A stretch of 64,000 nt of DNA from Sediminicoccus rosea (lineage in GTDB: Bacteria > Pseudomonadota > Alphaproteobacteria > Acetobacterales > Acetobacteraceae), in the NCBI RefSeq assembly GCF_033547095.1, contig NZ_CP137852.1, forward strand, positions 620,001 to 684,000, written 5' to 3'. The notes beneath the pieces are model-generated. The model was not told where the DNA came from and did not search any database. It worked only from the letters and a program-made list of their open reading frames with translations. Both the position numbers and the translations under genes were made by a program. Shown here piece by piece: positions 1 to 64,000 of this stretch (positions within the stretch are counted from its first letter, which is position 1; every line of letters begins with the position of its first letter).

Positions 1-92
1 CCTGAACCGAACGATACCATCCAATCTTTGAATTTTCCAGAAGCATTGCACCCAGTTAACGAGACCCCCGTCTGACTTCGGAGGTTTCCCGC
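1..92 (+). promoter_or_regulatory. leader and RBS of dabB
   Basis: This leader is visibly richer in A/T than the coding DNA that follows. A good Shine-Dalgarno sequence GGAGG lies at 80-84, eight bases before the ATG at 93, and decides the start of dabB. A TTGAAT at 28-33 could be a -35 element but I see no convincing -10 at the right distance, so the promoter may lie left of the window. No gene is visible here. Confidence 0.5.
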
Positions 93-1607
93 ATGCCCTG
101 GATCGCCGCACTGGCGCCCGCCCTGCTTGTCCTCGCCGCAGCCCTGCCCGGTGATTCGCGACGCCGCGTCACCCTCGCGGCCATGGGCGCCTTCGCGGCC
201 GCGCTCATCGTGGCGCTGGGCCTGATGCTGAACGGTGGGGCCAGCGGTTTCCTCCTGCATCTCGATGCCGTCTCGGGCGTGATGCTGCTGCTGGTCGCCT
301 TCATCGGGATGATCGTGACGCTCTACAGCCGCCGCTATCTCGACGGCGATGCGGGCCAGGCGCGCTTCTTCCGCTGGCTGGGCTATACGCTCGCCTCCGT
401 GCTGGCGCTCACCATCTCGGGCAACCTGCTCTTCTTCGCCGCCGCCTGGATCGCGACGAGCTTCTGCCTGCACCGGCTGCTGGTCTTCTACCCCGAGCGG
501 CATGGCGCGCAGCTCGCCGCCCGCAAGAAGTATGTGGCGAGCCGCCTCGGCGATGTCGCGCTGATCGCGGCGCTGCTGCTCATCCTCGGCCGCTTCGGCA
601 CGCTGGAATTCGGCGCGATCTTCGCGGCCACGGCGGCGCTCTCGGGCAGTGATGATCCGGGCATCGCGATTCACCTCGCGGCCGTGCTCCTCGCCTTCGC
701 GGCCATCGTGAAATCGGCGCAGTTCCCGTTGCATGGCTGGCTGCCCGAGGTGATGGAAACGCCGACGCCGGTCTCGGCGCTGCTGCATGCCGGCATCATC
801 AATGCGGGCGGCTTTCTCATCGTGCGCATGGCGGACCTCGTGGCCCTCTCGGCGCAGGCGCTCGACCTGCTGCTCGTGATCGGCGCCGTGACGGCGATCT
901 TCGGTGCGGCGGTGATGCTGACGCAGACCAGCGTGAAGGTGGCGCTCGCCTGGTCCACCGTCGCGCAGATGGGCTTCATGATCCTGCAATGCGGCCTCGG
1001 CGCCTTCGCCGCCGCCATGCTGCACATCGTGGCGCATGCCATGTACAAGGCGCACGCCTTCCTCTCCGCCGGCTCGGTCATCACGGAGCGCAAGCCGGGC
1101 GCGCAGCCGCCGCTGCCGCTGCGCATGCTCATCCCCGCGCTGGCGGTCGCCGTGCTCATGGTGCTGGTGGTGGGTGCGCTCTTCGGCATGCCCTTCCTGG
1201 AGAAGCCCGGCGTGGCCGTTCTGGGTGCCACGCTGATGATGGGGCTGACGCCCATGCTTGCCGGCGCGCTGATGGCGCGCGATGAGGCGCGCTTCGTGGC
1301 GCTCCGCGTCGGCGGCTTCGCGCTCGCCGTCTGCGTCGCCTATTTCGCGCTCCAGGCCGGTGCCGAGTGGCTGCTCGCCGCGGCCCTGCCGGAGCAGACC
1401 GTGCCGCGCGGCCCCTTCGCGCTCTTCTGGGCCGCCTTCACCGTCCTGGCCTTCGCCACGCTGCTGGTGCTGAACGTGCTGCGCCGGCGCGGCCGCGCAG
1501 GCCCCGCGTTGCAGGCCTTCTACGTCCATCTGTTCAACGGGTTCTACGTCAATGCCTGGTGCAACCGCCTGGTGGCGAGGCACTGGCCGCTCAAGGGAGG
1601 CGTGTGA
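93..1607 (+). CDS. dabB: DabB-like proton-conducting membrane subunit (NuoL/MrpA family)
   Basis: This 504-residue polytopic membrane protein belongs to the complex I NuoL/NuoM and Mrp antiporter family and would usually be labelled 'NADH-quinone oxidoreductase subunit L'. The proton-channel core with its conserved lysine and histidine (KSAQFPLHGWLPE) is near residues 206-220. No other nuo genes are present. The next gene, in a TGATG overlap, encodes a DUF2309/DabA protein. That pairing is the hallmark of the DAB inorganic-carbon accumulation complex, in which DabB is thought to couple ion flux to CO2 hydration by DabA. Function is inferred from family and operon structure. Confidence 0.88.
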   Translation: MPWIAALAPALLVLAAALPGDSRRRVTLAAMGAFAAALIVALGLMLNGGASGFLLHLDAVSGVMLLLVAFIGMIVTLYSRRYLDGDAGQARFFRWLGYTLASVLALTISGNLLFFAAAWIATSFCLHRLLVFYPERHGAQLAARKKYVASRLGDVALIAALLLILGRFGTLEFGAIFAATAALSGSDDPGIAIHLAAVLLAFAAIVKSAQFPLHGWLPEVMETPTPVSALLHAGIINAGGFLIVRMADLVALSAQALDLLLVIGAVTAIFGAAVMLTQTSVKVALAWSTVAQMGFMILQCGLGAFAAAMLHIVAHAMYKAHAFLSAGSVITERKPGAQPPLPLRMLIPALAVAVLMVLVVGALFGMPFLEKPGVAVLGATLMMGLTPMLAGALMARDEARFVALRVGGFALAVCVAYFALQAGAEWLLAAALPEQTVPRGPFALFWAAFTVLAFATLLVLNVLRRRGRAGPALQAFYVHLFNGFYVNAWCNRLVARHWPLKGGV

Positions 1608-3988
1608 TGACGATGATGGTGACGACGCTGCGGCAGGCCGCGAACCGCATCGCCCCGGTGTGGCCGCTGGCCGATTTCGTGGCGGTGAACCCCTTCCTCG
1701 GCCTCTCGGAACTGCCCTTCGGCGCGGCCCAGGCCATGCTGGGCCAGGTCAGCGGCCGCCCCGCCTTGCCCGAGCGCGCGGTCTTCGCTGAGGCCCTCGC
1801 GCGCGGCCGGATCACCGAGGCCGACCTCGCCGCTGCCATCGCGGCGGCCAGCGCCAGCCTGACGCCCGATGAATTGCGCGCCGTCGCCCAGCAACCCCGC
1901 CCGCCGGCCCCGCTCTCGCCCGCCGCGATGACGGTGAGCGACGTGCTGGACGCGACCCTCGGCACCGACTGGACGCGCGTCACGACGGAGGAAATCGCGA
2001 AATGGCTCGCCGCCTGGGCCGATGACGGCCAGGCGAGCTGGGGCATGCCCTGGCGTGGCCAGCCGCTCTACGCCGCCTGGCGTGCCGCGGCCCGGCATGA
2101 CCGCGCGCCGGAGGTGGCGGGCCTCACCGGGTTCCGCGCCCTCATCGCCTCGCTTCCGGCAGATGCGACAGAGAGTGCGGCAGCGAGCCTCGCCGCCCTC
2201 GGCATCGCGCAGCCCGCCGCCTATCTGCACCGCGCTCTGCTCGGCCTTGCTGGCTGGGGCGCCGCACTCCGGCAGCGGGGCTGGATGCGTGAGCTGGACG
2301 GCCAGGCGAATGACGGCGTGATCGAGCTGCTCGCCATCCGGCTCGCCTGGGAGCAGGCGCTGCACGCGCATCACACCCAGCCCGCCTTCCGCGCGGCCTG
2401 GCAGGCGCGGCTGAACACGCCCGAACCCGCCGCCCCCGATCTCGCGGCCGACCTCCTGCTGCTCGACGCCTATGAGCGCGGCTACCGGCGGGAGCTCGGC
2501 GGCAAGCTCGCGCAGCGCAAGTCGCGCGCGGCACCCGCCCCGCTGGTGCAGGCCGCCTTCTGCATCGATGTCCGCTCCGAGGTGTATCGCCGCGCGCTGG
2601 AGGAGGTGACCCTGCAGGCCGAGACCATCGGTTTCGCCGGCTTCTTCGGCTTCGCGCTGGAATATGTGCGCCTGGGGGACGCGAAGGGCGCCGAGCAATG
2701 CCCCGTGCTGCTCAAGCCCGGCCTGGTCATCTGCGAGGCGGTGCAGGGCGCCACCCCGGCCGAGGAGGCGGAGCTTGCCGCGCAGCGCGGCCTGAAGCGC
2801 CGCGCGGCCGATCTGTGGAACAGCTTCCGCAACTCCGCGGTCTCGTCCTTCGCCTATGTCGAGACCGCAGGCTTCCTCGCCGCGCCGGAGCTGGTGCGCG
2901 GCACGCTGGGGCGGAGCACGCCCAAGGCCGATGGGCTGGACCCCGCGCTGCTGGCGCGGCTCGGTCCCAGCCTGGAGGCGCGGCCCTGGCAGACGCGCGC
3001 GCATGGCTTCGCCAGTGCCGCCCGGCTGGATGCGGCGGAGGCGGTGCTGCGGGCGCTCTCGCTCACGCATGATTTCGCGCCCCTCGTGCTGCTCGCGGGC
3101 CATGGCAGCAGCACCGTGAACAACCCGCATGCCGCCGGCCTCGATTGCGGCGCCTGCGGCGGCCACACGGGCGAGAGCAATGCCCGCGTGGCGGCGGCCG
3201 TGCTGAACGACCCGGCGGTGCGCGCCGGCCTCGCCCCGCGCGGCATCGTCATCCCGCCCGGAACGCGCTTCCTGGCCGGGCTGCACGACACGACGACCGA
3301 TGAGGTCACGCTCTACGACGCCGACATGACGGACCCCGCCGTCCGGCAATTGCGCGCCTGGCTGGACGAGGCCTCGAAGCGCGCGCGGCGCTTCCGGGCC
3401 GGCAGCCTCGGCATCAGCGGCGCGCCGGATGCGGAGATCGCCCGCCGCAGCACCGACTGGTCCGAGGTGCGGCCGGAATGGGGGTTGGTGAACAACGCCG
3501 CCTTCATCGTCGCGCCGCGCAGCCGCACCCAGGGGCTCGACCTCGAGGGCCGCGCCTTCCTGCACTCCTATGTGTGGCAGGAGGACAAGGGCTTCGGCGT
3601 GCTGGAGCTGATCATGACGGCGCCCATGGTCGTCGCGAACTGGATCAACCTGCAATATTACGGCTCCACCGTGGACAATGCCGCGATGGGGTCGGGCAAC
3701 AAGGTGCTGCACAACATCACCGGCCGCCTGGGCGTGCTCGAGGGCCAGGGCGGCGACCTGCGCGTGGGTCTGCCGATGCAATCCCTGCATGACGGCACGG
3801 CGTGGCGGCATGAGCCGATGCGCCTGCACGTCGTGATCGAGGCGCCGGAGGCGGCGATGGAAGCCATTCTCGGCAAGCATGCGGGCGTGCGGCAACTGGT
3901 CGAGAATGGCTGGCTGCACCTCTTCTCCCTCGGCGAAGATGGCGGCATGCGCCGGTACCATGGTCCGGGGCGCTGGCTGGCGGATTGA
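1607..3988 (+). CDS. dabA: DabA-like inorganic carbon transporter subunit (DUF2309)
   Basis: This 793-residue protein of the DUF2309 family is the cytoplasmic beta-carbonic-anhydrase-like partner of DabB. The expected zinc-site residues are visible: Cys319 and Asp321 in the CIDVRSE motif, His499 in LLAGHGSS and Cys514 in LDCGACGGH. The 15-residue His-to-Cys spacing agrees with characterised DabA. An open frame extends upstream of 1607, but the ATG that overlaps the dabB stop gives the family-like start (MTMMVTTLRQAANRI) and implies translational coupling. The predicted role is energy-coupled conversion of CO2 to bicarbonate. No carboxysome or RuBisCO gene is in this window. Confidence 0.9.
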   Translation: MTMMVTTLRQAANRIAPVWPLADFVAVNPFLGLSELPFGAAQAMLGQVSGRPALPERAVFAEALARGRITEADLAAAIAAASASLTPDELRAVAQQPRPPAPLSPAAMTVSDVLDATLGTDWTRVTTEEIAKWLAAWADDGQASWGMPWRGQPLYAAWRAAARHDRAPEVAGLTGFRALIASLPADATESAAASLAALGIAQPAAYLHRALLGLAGWGAALRQRGWMRELDGQANDGVIELLAIRLAWEQALHAHHTQPAFRAAWQARLNTPEPAAPDLAADLLLLDAYERGYRRELGGKLAQRKSRAAPAPLVQAAFCIDVRSEVYRRALEEVTLQAETIGFAGFFGFALEYVRLGDAKGAEQCPVLLKPGLVICEAVQGATPAEEAELAAQRGLKRRAADLWNSFRNSAVSSFAYVETAGFLAAPELVRGTLGRSTPKADGLDPALLARLGPSLEARPWQTRAHGFASAARLDAAEAVLRALSLTHDFAPLVLLAGHGSSTVNNPHAAGLDCGACGGHTGESNARVAAAVLNDPAVRAGLAPRGIVIPPGTRFLAGLHDTTTDEVTLYDADMTDPAVRQLRAWLDEASKRARRFRAGSLGISGAPDAEIARRSTDWSEVRPEWGLVNNAAFIVAPRSRTQGLDLEGRAFLHSYVWQEDKGFGVLELIMTAPMVVANWINLQYYGSTVDNAAMGSGNKVLHNITGRLGVLEGQGGDLRVGLPMQSLHDGTAWRHEPMRLHVVIEAPEAAMEAILGKHAGVRQLVENGWLHLFSLGEDGGMRRYHGPGRWLAD

Positions 3989-4062: not shown

Positions 4063-5118
4063 ATGCCGGCCTCGCTCATCCTCAACCACCTCCTGCTGGT
4101 CCTGCCGCTGGTGGGTCTTTCGGCCCTCGTCGTGATGGCGATGATCCGTTGGCCCATCCTGGACGTGCCCAATGCGCGCAGCGCGCACACGGTGGTCACG
4201 CCGCGTGGCGGTGGCCTCGGCCCTGTGCTAGCCTTCGTGGTCGGCATGGTGGCGCTCTACCAGATGGCGGATTTCGCGCGCATCGCCGAGCGGCAGTTCA
4301 TCGGCGTCATCCTCGCCGCCATCGCCATCGCCGCCGTCGGGCTGCTGGACGACATGCGCGATCTGTCGGCGCGGCTGCGCCTCGTCTGCCAGTTCGGCGC
4401 GGCGATGGTCGCGGTGCTGTCCGGCCTCGTGCTGCACCGGCTCTCCCTGCCCGGCATCGGCGTGGTCGAGCTGGGCTTCCTCGGCACGCTCATCACGCTG
4501 TTCTGGATCATGGGCTGCACCAATGCGGTGAACTTCATGGACGGGCTGGATGGGCTGGTGGCCGGCACGCTGGTCATCGCCTGCGCCGCGCTGGCCGCCA
4601 TCGCACTCAGCCTGGGCGGCGGCTTCATCTATGCGGCCTCGCTCTTCCTCGCCGCCGGCTTCCTGGGTTTCCTGCCCTTCAACCTGCACCGCGCGCGCAT
4701 CTTCATGGGCGATGTGGGCAGCCAGTTCGCGGGCTTCATGCTGGCGGTGCTGGCGGTGGCCGCCGCCGGCTTCGAGCAGAGCCAGGTGAGCTTCCTCATC
4801 GTGCCCCTGCTCGTCTTCGGCCTGCTCTTCGACGCCGGCTTCACCCTGCTGCGCCGCGCCCTGATGGGTGAGCGCGTGGGCGCCGCGCATCGTTCGCATC
4901 TCTACCAGATGGCGCAGCGTGCGGGCGTGCCCGTGCGCGTGGTGGCCGGGATGCATTGGGGCTTCACCCTGTTCCATGCGGCGCTCGCCGTCTGGTTCCT
5001 GAACGTGCCCGCCGAGGTGAAGCCGCTGGTCGGCGCGCCGGCCCTCGCCGTGCAGTTGCTCTGGGCCGGCTATGTTCTGCACCGCATGCGCCGCGCGGGT
5101 CTCGGCTGGCGAAGCTGA
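4063..5118 (+). CDS. Glycosyltransferase family 4 (WecA/MraY-like sugar-1-phosphate transferase)
   Basis: This 351-residue integral membrane protein has about ten hydrophobic segments. It carries the family signatures: Asp96-Asp97 in LLDDMRDL, NFMDGLDGL beginning at Asn157, and MGDVGS at about residue 215. These match polyprenyl-phosphate N-acetylhexosamine-1-phosphate transferases, which load the first sugar of O-antigen, capsule or teichoic-type polymers onto undecaprenyl phosphate at the inner membrane. The substrate cannot be read from sequence. It stands alone, 74 bases after dabA, with no other polysaccharide genes close by. Confidence 0.85.
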   Translation: MPASLILNHLLLVLPLVGLSALVVMAMIRWPILDVPNARSAHTVVTPRGGGLGPVLAFVVGMVALYQMADFARIAERQFIGVILAAIAIAAVGLLDDMRDLSARLRLVCQFGAAMVAVLSGLVLHRLSLPGIGVVELGFLGTLITLFWIMGCTNAVNFMDGLDGLVAGTLVIACAALAAIALSLGGGFIYAASLFLAAGFLGFLPFNLHRARIFMGDVGSQFAGFMLAVLAVAAAGFEQSQVSFLIVPLLVFGLLFDAGFTLLRRALMGERVGAAHRSHLYQMAQRAGVPVRVVAGMHWGFTLFHAALAVWFLNVPAEVKPLVGAPALAVQLLWAGYVLHRMRRAGLGWRS

Positions 5119-8343: not shown

Positions 8344-9675
8344 GTGCCCTCCGCGCTGACGCATCCCGCCCGGCTGGTGCCCCTGGCCTTCCTGCTCGTC
8401 ATCATGCTCGGCACCGCGCTGCTCATGCTGCCGGTGGCGCGGGCGGACGGGGGCGGGGCGCCCTTCGTCACGGCACTGTTCACCGCCACCTCGGCGCTTT
8501 GCGTCACCGGCCTCATCGTGCAGGACACCGCGACCTACTGGTCCGCCTTCGGGCATGTGGTGATCCTCGCGCTGGTGCAGGTGGGCGGCTTCGGCATCAT
8601 GAGCGCGGCCACGCTGCTCAGCATGTTGGTGACGCGCCGGCTGCGCCTCAGCACGCGGCTCACCGCCCAGGCGGAAAGCCGCGCGCTGGCGCTGGGCGAT
8701 GTCACCGCCGTGCTGCGGCTGGTGGCGGTGGTGGCGCTGGTGGCGCAGGCCTCGCTCGCCACCATGCTCGCGCTGCGGCTGCGCCTCGCCCATGGCGAGG
8801 CCTGGGAGGATGCGCTCTGGAACGGCGCCTTCCACGCGGTCTCGGCCTTCAACAATGCGGGTTTCTCCACCTATTCCGAGGGCATGGCGCGCTTCGCGCT
8901 CGATCCGCTGATCCTGCTCCCGGTCATGCTGGGCGTCCTGCTGGGCGGCATCGGCATGCCGGTGCTGCACGATATCCGCCGCGCCCCGCGCACGCCCGCG
9001 CGCTGGTCGCTCCACACCAAGCTGACGCTGGCGGGCTCGGCGCTGCTGCTGCCGATCGGCTGGGCCGCCACCCTGCTCTATGAATGGGGCAATCCCGCCA
9101 CGCTGGGCGCGCTCGACCCCGCGGCGCGGGTGCTGAACGCCGGCTTCCATGCGGTGATGATGCGCTCGGGCGGGTTCAATGCCGTGGATGTCGGCCAGAT
9201 GACCGACCAGACGCTCGGCGTCACCTCCGCCCTGATGCTGATCGGCGGCGGCAGCGCAGGCACGGCGGGGGGCATCAAGATCACCACCTTCGTCATCATG
9301 CTGCTGCTCATCCTGGCCGAGGTGCGGGGCGAGCCGGACAGCGTCGCCTTCGGCCGCCGCGTCTCGCCCGAGGTGCAGCGCCAGGCCGTGACCGTCGTTC
9401 TGCTGGCGGTCGGCATGGTGGGCCTCGGCACGCTCCTGCTGCTGAGCCTGGCACAGGTCCATCTGCGGGATGCGATGTTCGAGGTGGTCTCCGCCTTCGC
9501 CACCGTGGGCCTCTCCACCGGCATCACGGGGCAGTTGCCGCCCTCGGCGCACTTGTTGCTGGTCGCGTTGATGTTCGTGGGCCGCGTCGGCACCATCACC
9601 GTGGCGACGGCACTGGCCCTGCGCGGCCGCCGCAACCCCTTCCGCTATCCAGAGGAGCGCCCCATCGTTGGCTGA
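8344..9675 (+). CDS. ktrB: Ktr/Trk-type potassium transporter, membrane subunit
   Basis: This 443-residue protein starts at GTG, one base after the stop of the MFS gene. It shows the four-fold P-loop architecture of the TrkH/KtrB superfamily. The filter-like segments are TSALCVTGL, AFNNAGFST, MRSGGFNAV and AFATVGLST, each with the key glycine. The length and the partner encoded next to it, with a single RCK unit, favour Ktr over Trk. It would catalyse Na+-linked or potential-driven K+ uptake at the inner membrane. Confidence 0.9.
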   Translation: MPSALTHPARLVPLAFLLVIMLGTALLMLPVARADGGGAPFVTALFTATSALCVTGLIVQDTATYWSAFGHVVILALVQVGGFGIMSAATLLSMLVTRRLRLSTRLTAQAESRALALGDVTAVLRLVAVVALVAQASLATMLALRLRLAHGEAWEDALWNGAFHAVSAFNNAGFSTYSEGMARFALDPLILLPVMLGVLLGGIGMPVLHDIRRAPRTPARWSLHTKLTLAGSALLLPIGWAATLLYEWGNPATLGALDPAARVLNAGFHAVMMRSGGFNAVDVGQMTDQTLGVTSALMLIGGGSAGTAGGIKITTFVIMLLLILAEVRGEPDSVAFGRRVSPEVQRQAVTVVLLAVGMVGLGTLLLLSLAQVHLRDAMFEVVSAFATVGLSTGITGQLPPSAHLLLVALMFVGRVGTITVATALALRGRRNPFRYPEERPIVG

Positions 9676-10333
9676 GGATCATTCCGACAATGGCGTCGTC
9701 GTCATCGGCCTGGGGCGCTTCGGCGGCGCCGTGGCGGAATCGCTCGTGCGCCTCGGCCATGACGTGCTGGCGATCGACCAGAACGAGGAGCTGGTGCAGT
9801 CCTGGTCGGACCGGCTGACGCATGTGGTGCAGGCCGACACGACGGACAGCGAGACGCTGCGGCGCCTGGGCGTGCAGGAATTCGGCCGCGCCGTGGTCGG
9901 CATCGGCACGGACCTCGAGGCGAGCGTGCTGACCGTGCTGGCCCTGGCCGAACTCGGCGTGGGGGACATCTGGGCCAAGGCGCTGGGGCCCAAGCATGGC
10001 CGCATCCTGGAGCGCACGGGCGCGCATCATGTGGTCTATCCCGAGGCGGAGATGGGCGAGCGCGTGGCGCATCTCGTCACCGGCCGCATGATGGATTTCA
10101 TCGAGTTCGACGACGGCTTCGCCATCGTGAAGACGCGTGCCCCGCGCGAGGCGGTGGGCCGCACGCTGGAGGAATGCCGGCTGCGCTCGAAATACGGGAT
10201 CACCGTCGTCGGCGTGAAAAGCCCACGGACGGATTTCGTGCACGCGCAGCCCGGCACCACCATCGCCCGCGACGATCTGTTGATCGTCTGCGGGCCGACC
10301 AAGCTGGTCGAGGCTTTCGCCGCCCTGACCTGA
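9668..10333 (+). CDS. ktrA: Ktr/TrkA-type potassium uptake regulatory subunit (RCK)
   Basis: This 221-residue cytosolic RCK protein has an N-terminal Rossmann fold with the nucleotide motif VVIGLGRFGGAVAE near residues 10-23, followed by a TrkA-C domain. It gates KtrB in response to ATP/ADP or NAD(H). The only reasonable start is TTG at 9668, inside the last codons of ktrB, giving an 8-base overlap and probable coupling. It has a single RCK unit, half the size of enterobacterial TrkA. Confidence 0.9.
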   Translation: MAEDHSDNGVVVIGLGRFGGAVAESLVRLGHDVLAIDQNEELVQSWSDRLTHVVQADTTDSETLRRLGVQEFGRAVVGIGTDLEASVLTVLALAELGVGDIWAKALGPKHGRILERTGAHHVVYPEAEMGERVAHLVTGRMMDFIEFDDGFAIVKTRAPREAVGRTLEECRLRSKYGITVVGVKSPRTDFVHAQPGTTIARDDLLIVCGPTKLVEAFAALT

Positions 10334-27938: not shown

Positions 27939-29813
27939 GTGAGCGCCCCCAGCAACAAACTCACCGCCGCCACCCTGCTCGGCGTCCTTGGCATCGTCTA
28001 TGGCGACATCGGCACCTCGCCGCTCTACGCCATGCGCGCCGCCCTGCTGCATTTCGACGAGGGCGGCATCGAGCGGTGGGAGATCCTCGGCATCCTCTCG
28101 CTCATCTTCTGGGCGCTGATGCTGACCGTCACGCTGAAATACGTGCTGATCATCCTGCGCGCCGACAACCGGGGCGAGGGCGGCATCATGTCGCTGATGG
28201 CGCTCGCCCAGCGCTCGGCCGAGACGCAGCGCGGGCGGCTCATCATCGCCATGATCGGCATCACCGGCGCCGCGCTGTTCTTCGGCGATGGCATGATCAC
28301 GCCAGCCATCTCCGTGCTCTCGGCGGTGGAGGGGCTGAAGGTCATCAACCCCGCCTTCGAGGAGGGGGTGCTGCCGATCACGCTCGTTGTGCTGGTCGCG
28401 CTCTTCCTCGTGCAGTATCGCGGCACGGGCAGCATTGGCGCCTTCTTCGGCCCGGTCTGCGCGGTGTGGTTCGCCGTGCTCGGCCTGCTCGGTCTGATCG
28501 AGGCGCTGCACAACCCCGAGGTCTTCGCCGCCATCAACCCCTGGTATGCACTGCACTTCGCGGCGCACTACCACCTCGCCGCCTTCATCGCGATGGGCGC
28601 GGTCGTGCTGGCCGTCACGGGCGCCGAGGCGCTCTACGCCGATATGGGGCATTTCGGCCGCCGGCCGATCCAGGTGGCCTGGATCTTCTTCGTGCTGCCG
28701 GCGCTGGCGCTGAATTATTTCGGCCAGGGCGCGCTGCTGCTGCGCGATGCGAGCGCGATCGAGAACCCCTTCTACCTCCTCGCGCCCGACTGGTTCCGCC
28801 CCTTCCTGGTCGTGCTGGCGACGGCGGCGACCATCATCGCCTCCCAGGCGATGATCTCGGGCGCCTATTCCATCGCGCGCCAATGCGTGCAGCTCGGCTT
28901 CGCCCCGCGCCTCGACGTGCGCCACACCAGCGCGACCGAGGAAGGGCAGATCTACATGCCGCAGGTGAACTTCATCCTGCTGATCGGCGTGCTGATCCTG
29001 GTGCTGGAGTTCAAGAACAGCGACAGCCTGGCGGCGGCCTATGGCCTCGCGGTCACCGGCACCTTCCTCTGCACCACCTGCCTCGCGCTGCTGGTCTTCC
29101 GCCGGCAGTTCGGCTGGAACCCCATCCTGGTCGGCCTGGTCTTCCTGCCGCTGCTGCTGCTCGACATGGCGTATTTCTTCGCCACCGCGCTGAAGATCCC
29201 CGAGGGCGGCTATGTGCCGGTCATCATCGGCGGCGTCGCCTTCACGCTGATGTTCACCTGGTATCGCGGGCGGGAGCTGCTCTTCGCCCGGTTCCGGCAG
29301 GACAGCCTGCCGCTGAAATCCTTCCTCGCGCGGCTGCCGCAATCGCGCACCACGCGCGTGCCGGGCATGGCCGTCTTCATGACCGGACAGGCGGACTACC
29401 TGCCCGGCGCACTGCTGCACAACCTCAAGCACAACAAGGTGCTGCATGAGCGCGTGCTGTTCGTGACGGTCATGAATGACGACATCCCGAGCGTCGGTCC
29501 GGACCGCCGCGCGGAGGTGACGGAACTCGGCCCCGACATCCATCGCGTCATCCTGCGCTACGGCTTCCAGGAGAGCCCGAACATCCCGCGCGAGCTGGAA
29601 CGGTTGGCGCAGCAGGGGCTGATCGGCTTCGAGCCGATGCAGACCAGCTATTTCCTGGGCCGCGAGACCATCGTGGCGGCCGCCGTTCCGAAGATGGCGC
29701 GCTGGCAGCAATGGCTCTTCACGCTGCTCAGCCGCAATTCGGTGCCGGCGACCGAGTTCTTCAAGATCCCCTCCGACCGCGTCGTGGAGCTTGGCGTGCG
29801 CGTGGCGATCTGA
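27939..29813 (+). CDS. kup: KUP-family potassium:proton symporter
   Basis: This 624-residue membrane protein starts at GTG 27939 with the family N-terminus [18 protein letters not shown]. About twelve membrane segments are followed by a C-terminal cytosolic domain (from about residue 450). The motif [18 protein letters not shown] is present. It catalyses low-affinity, proton-coupled K+ uptake that works at acidic pH. It is a second K+ system in the window besides KtrAB. It overlaps the acyltransferase gene by one base. Confidence 0.94.
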
Positions 29814-60166: not shown

Positions 60167-61258
60167 ATGCCATTCGATGCCCACAGCTTTCCCGCCCATG
60201 CCGCCGCCGCCCCGCGTGGGGGCCGCGCCAATCCCCGCGCCATCGCCTATTGGCTGCTCACCGTCGCCGGGCTGATCTGGCTCATGGTTGCGCTGGGCGG
60301 CGCCACGCGCCTGACCGGCTCGGGCCTCTCGATCATGGAATGGGCGCCGCTCGCCGGCACGCTGCCGCCCCTCAGCCAGGCCGAGTGGCAGCGCCTCTAC
60401 GACCTCTACCGTACCATCCCGCAATACCAGCTGCAGAACGCCGGCTTCGGGATGGAGGGCTTCCAGCGGATCTTCTGGCTGGAATGGGCGCATCGCTTCT
60501 GGGGGCGGCTGATCGGCCTCGCCTATCTCGTCCCGCTGCTCTGGTTCTGGGCGCGCGGCGCCATCCCGCGCGGCCTCGGGCCCCGGCTCGCGCTGCTCTT
60601 CGTGCTGGGCGGCCTGCAGGGGGCGATCGGCTGGTTCATGGTGGCCTCGGGCTTCGATGCGGACCGCACGGCCGTCTCGCCCTATCGCCTCGTGCTGCAC
60701 CTCTCCATGGCCTTCATCCTCTTCGGCCTGATCCTCTGGACCGCGCTCGGCCTGCTGCGGCCCGCGCCGATGGAGATCGTGCCGCAGCAGGGCAAGATCC
60801 GGCGGCAGGTGGTGGCGGCCTTCTGGCTGGCGGCGCTGACCATGCTGGCGGGCGGCTTCGTGGCCGGCATCCGCGCCGGCTTCAGCTACAACACCTTCCC
60901 GCTGATGGACGGCCAGCTCGTCCCCGCCGGCTATCTCGACCTCGAGCCCGTCTGGCGCAACCTGACCGCCAACATCGCCGCCGTGCAGTTCAACCACCGC
61001 CTGCTGGCGACGCTGACGCTGCTGGCCGCCATCGGCGCGGCCGTCGCCGCGCGCCGCCTGCCCGACGGCTTCGCCCGCCGCGCCGTCTGGACCATGGCGG
61101 CCGCGATCGGCGCGCAATACGCGCTCGGCATCGTCACGCTGCTGCATGTGGTGCCGGTCTCGCTCGGCACGCTGCACCAGGCGCTGGCGGTCGGCGTGCT
61201 CGCCGCCGGGCTCTGCGCCTGGCACGCGCTGCGCAAACCACCCGCCTCGGCGCCCTGA
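60167..61258 (+). CDS. ctaA: Haem A synthase (CtaA/COX15)
   Basis: This 363-residue eight-TM protein oxidises the methyl group of haem O to a formyl group, giving haem A for cytochrome oxidase. The haem-ligand histidines of COX15-type enzymes are present in EWAHRFWGR, LVLHLSMAF, QFNHRLLAT and TLHQALAV. The start MPFDAHSFPAHAAAAP at 60167 is chosen; ATG 60140 is possible. A TATTAT at 60152-60157 could be a -10. The PAS-array gene starts two bases after its stop. Confidence 0.93.
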   Translation: MPFDAHSFPAHAAAAPRGGRANPRAIAYWLLTVAGLIWLMVALGGATRLTGSGLSIMEWAPLAGTLPPLSQAEWQRLYDLYRTIPQYQLQNAGFGMEGFQRIFWLEWAHRFWGRLIGLAYLVPLLWFWARGAIPRGLGPRLALLFVLGGLQGAIGWFMVASGFDADRTAVSPYRLVLHLSMAFILFGLILWTALGLLRPAPMEIVPQQGKIRRQVVAAFWLAALTMLAGGFVAGIRAGFSYNTFPLMDGQLVPAGYLDLEPVWRNLTANIAAVQFNHRLLATLTLLAAIGAAVAARRLPDGFARRAVWTMAAAIGAQYALGIVTLLHVVPVSLGTLHQALAVGVLAAGLCAWHALRKPPASAP

Positions 61259-61260
61259 GG

Positions 61261-64000
61261 ATGGACGCCGCCGCCCCCCGACCGCCCGAGATCCTCGCGG
61301 CCCTGCCGCTGGCGGTGATGGGCTTTTCCGGGGCGGGCGGGCTGGTCTTCGCCAATACCGCCATGCATGCGCTGCTGCGGGTGGATCAGGCGGCGCTGAA
61401 GCCCGGTGCGGCCCTGGCCGATGTGCTGCGCCTGCTGGCCTTCCGTGGCGCGCTTGGCCCCGGCGACCCGGCCGAGCGCCTGCGCGAGGTGCTCGCGCTC
61501 GACCTCACCCTGCCGCATCGCCGCCTGCTGCGGGATGTCGAGGGCCGCGGCCTCGAATGGCGCATCGTGCCGCTGGCCGATGGCGGCCACCTGCTGACGC
61601 TGGCCGATGTGAGCGAATTCCTCCAGGCGCGCGAGGTGGCGGAGCGCGAGGCCGGCGCGTTGTCCGGCGTGCTGGCCCGGCTCAACAACGGTGTCGCGCA
61701 GTATGACGCGGCGCGTCGCCTCGCGCGCAGCAACCCCGCCTATGCGCGCCTGCTCGGCCTGCCTCAGCATGCGCTCCAGCCCGGCATGCCGCTCACCGAG
61801 ATCGTCGCGCGCCAGCAGGAGGCTGGCGAGTTCGATGCCGCCCGTGCCGCCGCCGTGGTGGCCGACCTCACGACGCGCTCCGTCGCCCAGCCCTGGCGGC
61901 ATGAGCGGACGCGCCCGGATGGCCGAACCGTCCGCTTCGAGAACCAGCCCATGCCCGATGGCGGCTGGCTGGTCGAGATCATGGACATCACCGACGCGCA
62001 TCAGGCCGCGCAGGATGTCCGCCGCCGGGTGGCCCTGCAGGACGCGCTGATGGAGGCGCTGCCGGTGGGCGTCGCGGTCTATGGCCCCGACCGCGTGCTG
62101 ACGCAGGTGAACCCGGCCTATAACCGCATCATGGCGCACAGCCCCGTGCGCCTCGGCGAGAACCTGCGCGACATCCTGATGCGGCGCGCCATCGCCGGCG
62201 AGTTCGGCCCCTGCGACCCGGAAGTGGAAGTCGCCCGCCGCCTCGCCGCCACCAGCACCTCGCACGGGTTCGAGCGCCGCACGCCGGAGGGCATCGCCAC
62301 CAGCCATCGCAGCGTGCCGCTGCCCGATGGCGGGCATGCCATGGTGGTGGCCGACGTCACCGCGCTGCACGCCGCCCAGGCCGAGGCGCGCGAGCGGGCC
62401 GAGGTGCTGGCCCACATGCTGGAGAGCACGCGCCACGGCATGGCGATGTTCGACGGCGAGGGCACCGTCATCGCCGCCAACCGGCTGGCCGCGCATTTCT
62501 GCGGCCTGCCACCCGAGGCCTTCCGCCGCGGCGCCAATATCCGCGAGCTGCGCGCCCTGCAGATCCAGCTCGGCGTGCATGGCGACAAGCTCTCGACCGA
62601 CCGCTTCCTGGCCGAGCGGATGAACGAGCCGCTGCGGGGCCCCGATCGCTACCGCCGCACCAACCCGGACGGCACGGTGGTGGAGATCATCACCGACCAG
62701 CTGCCCGAGGGCGGCTATGTCCGCTCCTTCACCGACGTGACGGCGCAGGTCCAGGCCGAGGCGGAAGCGACGAGCCGCGCCGCCTCGCTGCAGGCCGTGC
62801 TCGACAACATGCGGCACGGCATCATCCTCTATGATGCCGAGGGCTACGTCCGCACCGGGAATGCGCTGGGCGCCCGCCTGGCGGGCCTGCCGCCCGACAT
62901 GCTGCGCCCCGGCGTGCATTTCGACGACCTGCGCGATGTCCAGGCCGAGCGCGGCGAGCATGGCGTGGGCGAGGCCGGGCAGCGCTGGCGCCAGAACCGC
63001 GTGCGGGAGCCCTGGAAGGGCGAGAGCACCTACACCCGCAAGCGCCCCGACGGCACCATCATCGAGGTCCGCACCGATCTCATCCCCGGCGGCGGCTGCG
63101 TCCGCTCCTTCACCGACATCACGGCGCTGACCGAGGCGCAGGCGGCGGCCACGCAGCGCGCCGCCATGGTGCAGGCGATGCTGGACAACATGCGCCACGG
63201 CATCGCGCTGTTCGACGCGCAGGACCGGCTGCTCACCTTCAACCCGCTCTGCGCCGCGCTGATGGGCCTCGAGGGCTGGCTGCGCCCCGGCGTGGAATAT
63301 GCCGAGCTGCTGGCGCACCAGCTCGAAGCCGGCGAATTCGGCGAGGGCCCGGCGGCGCGCGATCGGGTCGCCGCCTTCCTCGTGCGGGACAAGGGCACGC
63401 CCAACACCATCCGCCGCCGCCGCCCGACCGGCGAGGAGCTGGAGGTGACGTCGAGCCCGGTGCCGCAGGGCGGCTTCGTGCTGACGCTGACCGACATCAC
63501 CGCCCGCGTGGTGGCCGAACGCGAGGTGGAGCGCCGGGCCGAGGTGCTGGCCGCCACGCTGAACGCGGCGCGCCAGGGCATCATCCTGTTCGACGCCGAG
63601 GGCCGCGCGGTGGCCGCGAACGACATCGCCGCGCAGCTCACCACCCGGGCCGGCCCGGCGACGCTCGTCGGCCTCAGCCATTCCGAGATCGTGGGCAACC
63701 AGCACCGCTTCGAGGGCGCGAGCGAGGCGGAGGTGGAGCAGGTGATGCGGCAGGTGGCGACGGTGGACCGCCGCCAGCACCACCGCTACCAGCGCCGCCG
63801 CCGCGATGGCCTGGTGCTCGACATCAGCTCCGACCCGATGCCCGAGGGCGGCTACGTCGTCTGCTTCTCGGACGTGACGGAGCTGGTGCGCGCGCGCGAG
63901 CAGGCGCAGGCCCGCGCGGCGCTGCTCTCCGCCACCCTGAACGCGGCGCGCCAGGGCATCACGCTGTTCGACCGCAACGGCATCGTCCTCGCCGCCAACG
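61261..64000 (+). CDS. Multi-PAS signalling protein, cut by the window end
   Basis: This frame starts at ATG 61261 directly after ctaA and remains open to the edge (more than 910 residues). It is made almost entirely of tandem PAS-like modules of about 110-130 residues. Modules are headed by variants of RHGI(A/I)LFDAEG, at roughly residues 150, 270, 390, 510, 640, 760 and 890, and each is followed by a DGG/EGG-xxx-SFTDIT segment. I count eight, the last incomplete. No catalytic domain is seen yet, but a histidine kinase/ATPase or receiver part is expected beyond the edge. It has no obvious signal or TM segment, so it is cytosolic sensing. Confidence 0.85.
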   Translation, partial: MDAAAPRPPEILAALPLAVMGFSGAGGLVFANTAMHALLRVDQAALKPGAALADVLRLLAFRGALGPGDPAERLREVLALDLTLPHRRLLRDVEGRGLEWRIVPLADGGHLLTLADVSEFLQAREVAEREAGALSGVLARLNNGVAQYDAARRLARSNPAYARLLGLPQHALQPGMPLTEIVARQQEAGEFDAARAAAVVADLTTRSVAQPWRHERTRPDGRTVRFENQPMPDGGWLVEIMDITDAHQAAQDVRRRVALQDALMEALPVGVAVYGPDRVLTQVNPAYNRIMAHSPVRLGENLRDILMRRAIAGEFGPCDPEVEVARRLAATSTSHGFERRTPEGIATSHRSVPLPDGGHAMVVADVTALHAAQAEARERAEVLAHMLESTRHGMAMFDGEGTVIAANRLAAHFCGLPPEAFRRGANIRELRALQIQLGVHGDKLSTDRFLAERMNEPLRGPDRYRRTNPDGTVVEIITDQLPEGGYVRSFTDVTAQVQAEAEATSRAASLQAVLDNMRHGIILYDAEGYVRTGNALGARLAGLPPDMLRPGVHFDDLRDVQAERGEHGVGEAGQRWRQNRVREPWKGESTYTRKRPDGTIIEVRTDLIPGGGCVRSFTDITALTEAQAAATQRAAMVQAMLDNMRHGIALFDAQDRLLTFNPLCAALMGLEGWLRPGVEYAELLAHQLEAGEFGEGPAARDRVAAFLVRDKGTPNTIRRRRPTGEELEVTSSPVPQGGFVLTLTDITARVVAEREVERRAEVLAATLNAARQGIILFDAEGRAVAANDIAAQLTTRAGPATLVGLSHSEIVGNQHRFEGASEAEVEQVMRQVATVDRRQHHRYQRRRRDGLVLDISSDPMPEGGYVVCFSDVTELVRAREQAQARAALLSATLNAARQGITLFDRNGIVLAAN

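Follow-up and report, generated by a model that had tools for sequence, protein, structure and literature searches.

Energy-coupled CO2 pumps of the DAB type have been studied structurally in DAB2 of the autotroph Halothiobacillus neapolitanus (PMC13144422). Their presence in non-autotrophs has already been published (PMC13144422; PMC6689103 and PMC10880623, both cited, like PMC2749216, PMC8552792, PMC8567241, PMC10008586, PMC10715153, PMC11089705 and PMC12654162 below, from the parts of these papers available to us), and the homologous MpsAB is needed by Staphylococcus aureus for growth at atmospheric CO2 (PMC6689103). In Candidatus Phycosocius, an anaplerotic CO2 uptake fed by the transporter Sbt has been proposed (PMC10008586). 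It is an old question by what means aerobic anoxygenic phototrophs that have no fixation cycle take up CO2, and why light aids this uptake in some species only (PMC2749216). Here we describe a dabB-dabA gene pair of Sediminicoccus rosea, located at the start of a 64,000-nucleotide stretch of its genome (contig NZ_CP137852.1, positions 620,001 to 684,000; hereafter the window). A DAB in a heterotroph is by itself ordinary; what is new is its context, a probable phototroph without a RuBisCO match. In the literature searched, which left most subscription papers outside its reach, we met with no statement that connects DAB with phototrophy in the absence of RuBisCO, and the words bicarbonate, inorganic carbon and DabA do not occur in the main text of PMC10715153.

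Results

An intact dabBA pair

The two genes and the likely ribosome-binding site of the first are, in window positions:

80-84, plus strand: GGAGG, likely ribosome-binding site of dabB, read from the sequence, 8 bases 5' of the ATG at 93
93-1607, plus strand: dabB, ATG at 93, TGA at 1605-1607, 504 amino acids, predicted NuoL-like proton-conducting membrane subunit
1607-3988, plus strand: dabA, ATG at 1607-1609, 793 amino acids, predicted cytoplasmic subunit resembling beta-carbonic anhydrase (former DUF2309)

Both genes are intact. They overlap in the sequence TGATG, where the A of the dabB stop codon doubles as the A of the dabA start codon; a longer dabA open reading frame from GTG 1367 was rejected as an upstream extension running over dabB. 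DabA matches Pfam PF10070 with 869.8 bits (cut-off 25) over model positions 2-747 of 747, and DabB carries PF00361 and PF00662. Against solved chains, the sole match of DabA at E<=1 was 9rd0_A, the DabA2 of H. neapolitanus (E 2.7e-185), and the best of the 58 matches of DabB was 9rd0_B, DabB2 (E 3.3e-80). The initial annotation had described a complete dabAB pair with a coupled overlap and a NuoL-like partner of DabA, and on both counts the intact reading frames, the Pfam families and the solved chains agree with it.

The residues compared with DAB2, numbered there as in PMC13144422, were:

DabA, by alignment to 9rd0_A: predicted zinc ligands C319, H499 and C514; dyad D321/R323; finger glutamate E419
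DabB I120, R151, D154, K207, S228, H232: DabB2 I151, R182, D185, K235, S256, H260
DabB K282, S288, H311, H315, K319: DabB2 K310, S316, H339, H343, K347

The zinc-site residues C319, D321, H499 and C514 of DabA align to C351, D353, H524 and C539 of DabA2; their alignment with characterised DabA had been named beforehand as one test by which the annotation could fail, and it held. R323 (R355), L627 (L658) and the finger-helix E419 (E444) are also identical. In an alignment of 118 DabA sequences, 109 of them distinct, columns 319, 321, 323, 499 and 514 are invariant in all 114 sequences having a letter there (4 gaps), and column 419 is a glutamate in 113 of 114. In DabB, all 11 proton-path residues corresponding to the DabB2 positions mutated in PMC13144422 are identical. 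The nearest DabA records come from an Acetobacteraceae metagenome-assembled genome (MAG; 92%), Roseococcus sp. SDR (89%) and a Roseococcus MAG (84%). The ratio of non-synonymous to synonymous substitution rates (dN/dS) of dabA is 0.135-0.201 against the four nearest named relatives and 0.456 against L008, a fifth and more distant comparison; the low values in the close pairs indicate that dabA is under purifying selection.

Automatic annotation may misname this pair, since the NCBIfam equivalog of NADH-quinone oxidoreductase subunit L matches DabB (388 bits, cut-off 380) and no NCBIfam model matched DabA. An identity as a NuoL of respiratory complex I was rejected, the context not being that of a nuo operon; the neighbours of dabBA are genes for a LysR-type regulator, a family 4 glycosyltransferase and a copper amine oxidase. 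By every sequence feature checked, the pair belongs to the DAB/DAC energy-coupled CO2 pumps.

A probable phototroph's genome without a RuBisCO match

The genome (5.14 Mb, two contigs, 98.71% complete) gave 0 matches to the RuBisCO large chain (PF00016) and two to the reaction-centre family PF00124 (best E 9.4e-97), and it thus combines reaction-centre genes with no RuBisCO match. It holds one beta-carbonic anhydrase, which reaches 208.7 bits with the NCBIfam carbonate dehydratase model, under the cut-off of 251. Of the genome-wide checks suggested in the initial annotation, those for the RuBisCO large chain and for beta-carbonic anhydrase are answered by these counts, and its description of the surroundings as heterotrophic stands as far as RuBisCO is concerned but is incomplete, because the genome carries reaction-centre genes. 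The organism is a Roseococcus relative and probably an aerobic anoxygenic phototroph. Roseococcus is a genus of bacteriochlorophyll-bearing aerobic phototrophs (PMC12654162, PMC10715153), and the available part of PMC10715153 lists species of Roseococcus, Rubritepida and Paracraurococcus as having a reaction centre and no RuBisCO. Three roles for dabAB were discarded for this genome: as part of a RuBisCO locus and as part of an autotrophic carbon-concentrating mechanism, both for want of a PF00016 match, and as a stand-in for a missing carbonic anhydrase, given the beta-carbonic anhydrase.

Distribution in the genus and in the family

Among the 21 genomes of the genus, 14 carry PF00124 and 7 do not, and dabA is present in 12 of the former and none of the latter (Fisher p 3.1e-4). 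A control gene beside dabA (window 4063-5118) was matched in 20 of the 21 genomes at 64-100% identity, which makes assembly gaps a poor explanation of this pattern. No RuBisCO was found in the 14 genus members tested. In an rpoB tree of 19 genus genomes and 3 others (G397 and G399 were unmatched, and four others entered by partial genes), the genomes lacking a reaction centre fall into two groups, G389/G248/G278 and G175/G377/G322/G402, each a clade with a support of 1.00 and each sister to reaction-centre genomes (supports 0.99 and 1.00). A parallel loss of dabA and reaction centre, occurring twice, is the simplest account, although two gains are also possible; we prefer losses because the ancestor of the Acetobacteraceae has been argued to have been photosynthetic (PMC10715153) and because the non-phototrophs fall in two clades.

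The DabA of three genus members (G044, G124 and G216) belongs to a different clade (47-48% identical); two or more DabA lineages have thus contributed to the genus. Within the genus both lineages turned up only in genomes with a reaction centre, whereas outside it the other clade also includes genomes without one. In the window's own DabA clade, PF00124 is present in all nine sampled genomes and RuBisCO in none of the five tested, a test that omits G398, G399, G401 and G403. Beta-carbonic anhydrase is missing in 3 of 8 dabA genomes (G216, G338, G365) and 1 of 6 others (G278) in the genus sample. That DAB was cleanly excised from a single conserved site was rejected, as the control gene adjoins dabA, judged inside a 1.5 kb flank, only in G000, G301 and G401.

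Across 397 genomes of the family, dabA was found in 74, PF00124 over the cut-off in 123 (G018, under the curated cut-off, was removed) and RuBisCO in 55. RuBisCO was counted only at E<1e-100; of the 140 genomes that matched PF00016 at all, 85 thereby scored negative. Their matches are weaker, RuBisCO-like or partial and may include a form II enzyme. dabA occurs in 51 of the 123 genomes with PF00124 versus 23 of the 274 without it. Broken down further, it is present in 18/41 genomes with reaction centre and RuBisCO, 33/82 with a reaction centre only, 7/14 with RuBisCO only and 16/260 with neither. Restricting the comparison to genomes with a completeness of 90% or more and a contamination of 5% or less gave 45/99 with PF00124 versus 16/231 without (tallied by hand from listings, as were the carbonic anhydrase counts). 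Family-wide Fisher tests ignore kinship. When stratified by genus, the association of dabA with the reaction centre had an odds ratio (OR) of 4.0 (permutation p 6e-4), and that with form I RuBisCO one of 1.2 (p 0.43); the stratified tests exclude five genomes of unknown genus (G234, G280, G319, G326 and G370), of which G326 was assigned a genus later.

Carbonic anhydrase of the beta class is present in 346 of the 397 genomes. It is present in 60/74 genomes with dabA and 286/323 without it (p 0.12), so a substitution of DAB for carbonic anhydrase is not supported in general. The two often coexist in this family, which departs from the rule that was proposed on the basis of Firmicutes.

Six of the 25 genomes having both dabA and form I RuBisCO (G023, G041, G043, G081, G146 and G153) carry them 4.4-8.5 kb apart. 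Two of these, G043 and G153, have a second dabA elsewhere, which suggests separate autotrophic and stand-alone copies.

DAB and SbtA

The genome of S. rosea also encodes a homologue of another inorganic-carbon transporter, a second one in a genome without a RuBisCO match:

C1:562200-563123 (L170:4486-5451), minus strand: SbtA homologue (Sbt_1, PF05982)
C1:561883-562188 (L170:4184-4489), minus strand: P-II domain gene, possibly SbtB-like, overlapping the SbtA homologue

The best solved match of the P-II domain gene is 5d4n, a P-II protein; SbtB chains appear only at E>=0.09.

SbtA was followed in a subset of 328 genomes, taken as G000-G327 as inferred from handle order. Where form I RuBisCO is lacking, 40/67 genomes with a reaction centre versus 37/212 others have DAB or SbtA, and within genera the presence of either transporter is associated with the reaction centre (OR 7.67, p 0.0026; with our own genus removed, OR 6.25, p 0.012). 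SbtA taken singly gave a weak within-genus association with the reaction centre (p 0.098 in the family; p 0.074 without form I RuBisCO). In genus g102, each of the subset's six reaction-centre genomes has either DAB or SbtA but not both, and the single remaining genome lacks both; in genus g72, all five reaction-centre genomes have exactly one, and of those without a reaction centre two have neither and one, 69% complete, has SbtA. In these two genera it looks as if one pump was replaced by another.

Against a general replacement rule, several genomes, that of S. rosea included, carry both. Over the whole subset SbtA is present in 9/61 dabA genomes versus 42/267 others, that is, independently and not exclusively, and in reaction-centre genomes without form I RuBisCO in 8/22 with dabA versus 18/45 without. 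A general rule is also contradicted by 27 reaction-centre genomes with neither transporter. The clearest counter-example is genus g37, whose seven sampled genomes all combine a reaction centre with a lack of form I RuBisCO, while six of them lack both DAB and SbtA; it is one place to look for another transporter. That SbtA follows the reaction centre in our own genus was ruled out by mismatches of both types (G248 and G278, SbtA without PF00124; G044, G124 and G216, PF00124 without SbtA).

Promoter region and neighbouring genes

Upstream of dabB lies a divergent gene for a LysR-type regulator, whose start codon ends 11 bases before the first base of the window:

genome C1:619121-619990 (L002:14621-15490), minus strand: lysR, 289 amino acids
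28-43 of the window, strand not given: TTGAATTTTCCAGAAG, conserved intergenic element and candidate LysR operator, from an alignment of eight regions

The lysR-dabB promoter region they share is 102 bases long. The eight aligned intergenic regions come from the window, Roseococcus, Rubritepida, Paracraurococcus and related MAGs, and 11 of the 16 columns of the TTGAATTTTCCAGAAG element are invariant in all of them, Paracraurococcus included. No long inverted repeat was found in the dabB promoter region; the only inverted repeat in positions 1-92 is GTTAAC at 55-60. The order LysR/dabB/dabA is also found in L007, L008 and L010, there without the window's other flanking genes, and the regulator thus seems to travel with the pump. 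Its best NCBIfam match is NhaR, with 124 bits, under the cut-off of 219. NhaR is a sodium-responsive regulator.

Upstream of the window, a class III aminotransferase gene (L002:13573-14624) is split into two open reading frames in different frames, in a stretch some 190-200 bases shorter than in the relatives L009 and L004; it looks like a decayed gene. The sole beta-carbonic anhydrase gene of the genome, at L003:1393-2154, is flanked by open reading frames that are hemerythrin-like by eye. Within the window, 51 genes were picked by codon composition, and no autotrophy or photosynthesis family is among the Pfam families named for 39 of them and for two further open reading frames (the remaining 12 genes, like most of 61,258-64,000, are unassigned). 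The products of the scanned genes are ordinary ones, such as transporters for potassium and of the ABC and MFS types, DNA polymerase III tau and two-component proteins. Potassium transporters of the TrkH, TrkA and Kup types lie within this one window (8344-10333 and 27939-29813).

Discussion

In this work, we have used comparative sequence analysis to place the dabBA pair of S. rosea among the DAB pumps and to follow its distribution. We favour, with somewhat better than even confidence, a pump that uses the proton motive force, to which light contributes, to turn CO2 into bicarbonate for ordinary anaplerotic and biosynthetic carboxylations, under the control of LysR. The mechanism that we have in mind is that of the DAB2 structure paper, where it is in part a hypothesis (PMC13144422). 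DabB would conduct protons inward down the proton motive force, CO2 would enter the buried zinc site of DabA, and protons passing through DabB and DabA's finger helices would drive a one-way hydration of CO2 to bicarbonate, which would be released on the cytoplasmic side. As no RuBisCO was found to be fed, the bicarbonate would go not to a Calvin cycle but to the carboxylation of phosphoenolpyruvate or pyruvate, to acetyl-CoA carboxylase and to carbamoyl phosphate. A partial 3-hydroxypropionate bicycle has been described in bloom phototrophs (PMC11089705), and such a bicycle is another possible user. Anaplerosis is our best guess for the use of the pump, alongside pH control or growth at low CO2 as possibilities. 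Light-driven electron flow through the reaction centre would strengthen the proton motive force and save carbon from being respired, and this would account for the retention of the pump in the genus only alongside a reaction centre; the divergent LysR regulator would control dabBA, probably by CO2 supply. Our results suggest that light may help to power the bicarbonate supply of ordinary metabolism. Acidiphilium rubrum belongs to the same family as S. rosea. In this species CO2 fixation rises 3-5-fold in light, as cited in PMC2749216.

Several observations weigh against this interpretation. With our own genus removed, the association of dabA with the reaction centre falls to an OR of 2.66 (p 0.03), and to one of 3.2 (p 0.12) in genomes without form I RuBisCO, so that a good share of the kinship-controlled signal comes from that genus, where the parallel losses amount to just two events and where two phototrophs have no dabA (G397, 74% complete, and G400, 88%). 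In the family, 72 of the 123 reaction-centre genomes are without dabA and 23 of the 74 dabA genomes without PF00124. The coordinates in the single-contig genomes G352 and G216 do not place dabAB close to the reaction-centre genes, and a physical linkage of the two was rejected on this basis. TGT-N12-ACA is the PpsR-like motif, and no such site is present in the 102-base promoter region. In Roseobacter denitrificans, 10-15% of protein carbon comes from CO2, and light did not raise CO2 incorporation (PMC2749216). Finally, DAB coexists in our genome with a beta-carbonic anhydrase, a combination argued to be wasteful in Firmicutes (PMC8552792).

The main rival is a shared habitat. DAB and phototrophy would both suit sunlit, CO2-poor surface water of high pH, where cyanobacterial or algal photosynthesis depletes CO2 and raises the pH, and a pump running on respiratory proton motive force would relieve CO2 starvation. 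This would explain the co-distribution without any coupling, and with it the non-adjacent dabAB and reaction-centre loci; the enrichment of SbtA in reaction-centre genomes fits as well, as do the listing of Roseococcus microcysteis with a reaction centre (PMC10715153) and the aerobic phototrophs described from Microcystis blooms (PMC11089705). By itself, however, a common habitat does not predict the joint loss of DAB and reaction centre in the genus, unless the losses mark changes of habitat, and we hold it to be a serious but less likely explanation. We give much less credence to the possibility that the pair works like MpsAB, as a bicarbonate importer coupled to Na+ or protons or as a device for pH homeostasis, and not as a CO2-hydrating enzyme. 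A Na+/HCO3- symport has been proposed for MpsAB of S. aureus (PMC13144422), and the sub-threshold NhaR match of the divergent LysR points the same way, but every DAB2 zinc, dyad and proton-path residue checked is retained, and DAB2 is sodium-independent (PMC13144422).

The least probable of these alternatives, in our judgement, is a relic, in which an ancestor with a Calvin cycle and DAB lost its RuBisCO and DAB lingers. The photosynthetic family ancestor argued for in PMC10715153 and the six genomes with dabA close to form I RuBisCO would suit such a history. It fits poorly with the low dN/dS and fully conserved catalytic residues of dabA, with a DabA clade whose sampled members all have PF00124 and whose tested members gave no RuBisCO match, and with the second DabA lineage within the same genus. 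Extending our preferred reading of a light-assisted bicarbonate pump beyond S. rosea, we tentatively propose, with rather less confidence than for the pump itself, that RuBisCO-free anoxygenic phototrophs possess a light-energised carbon-concentrating front end (DAB or, in some genera, SbtA instead) that serves anaplerosis and is lost together with the reaction centre.

If true, this would be a carbon-concentrating mechanism without a carbon-fixation cycle. A pump that comes and goes with the reaction centre in one genus offers a single gene to knock out, and the annotation of a DAB should not be taken to signal autotrophy.

How does this system compare with those already described? It shares with DAB2 of H. 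neapolitanus (9rd0, 9rd8 and 9rd9) the two genes, the full-length homology and all the residues checked, but H. neapolitanus is an autotroph with RuBisCO, whereas here reaction-centre genes are found and no RuBisCO match. Like MpsAB of S. aureus, it is a DAB homologue in a non-autotroph; S. aureus, according to the available part of PMC8567241, has no carbonic anhydrase gene, whereas S. rosea has a beta-carbonic anhydrase and an SbtA homologue. Candidatus Phycosocius is likewise a RuBisCO-free aerobic phototroph with an inorganic-carbon transporter (PMC10008586), which is Sbt in that organism, and DAB together with an Sbt homologue in S. rosea.

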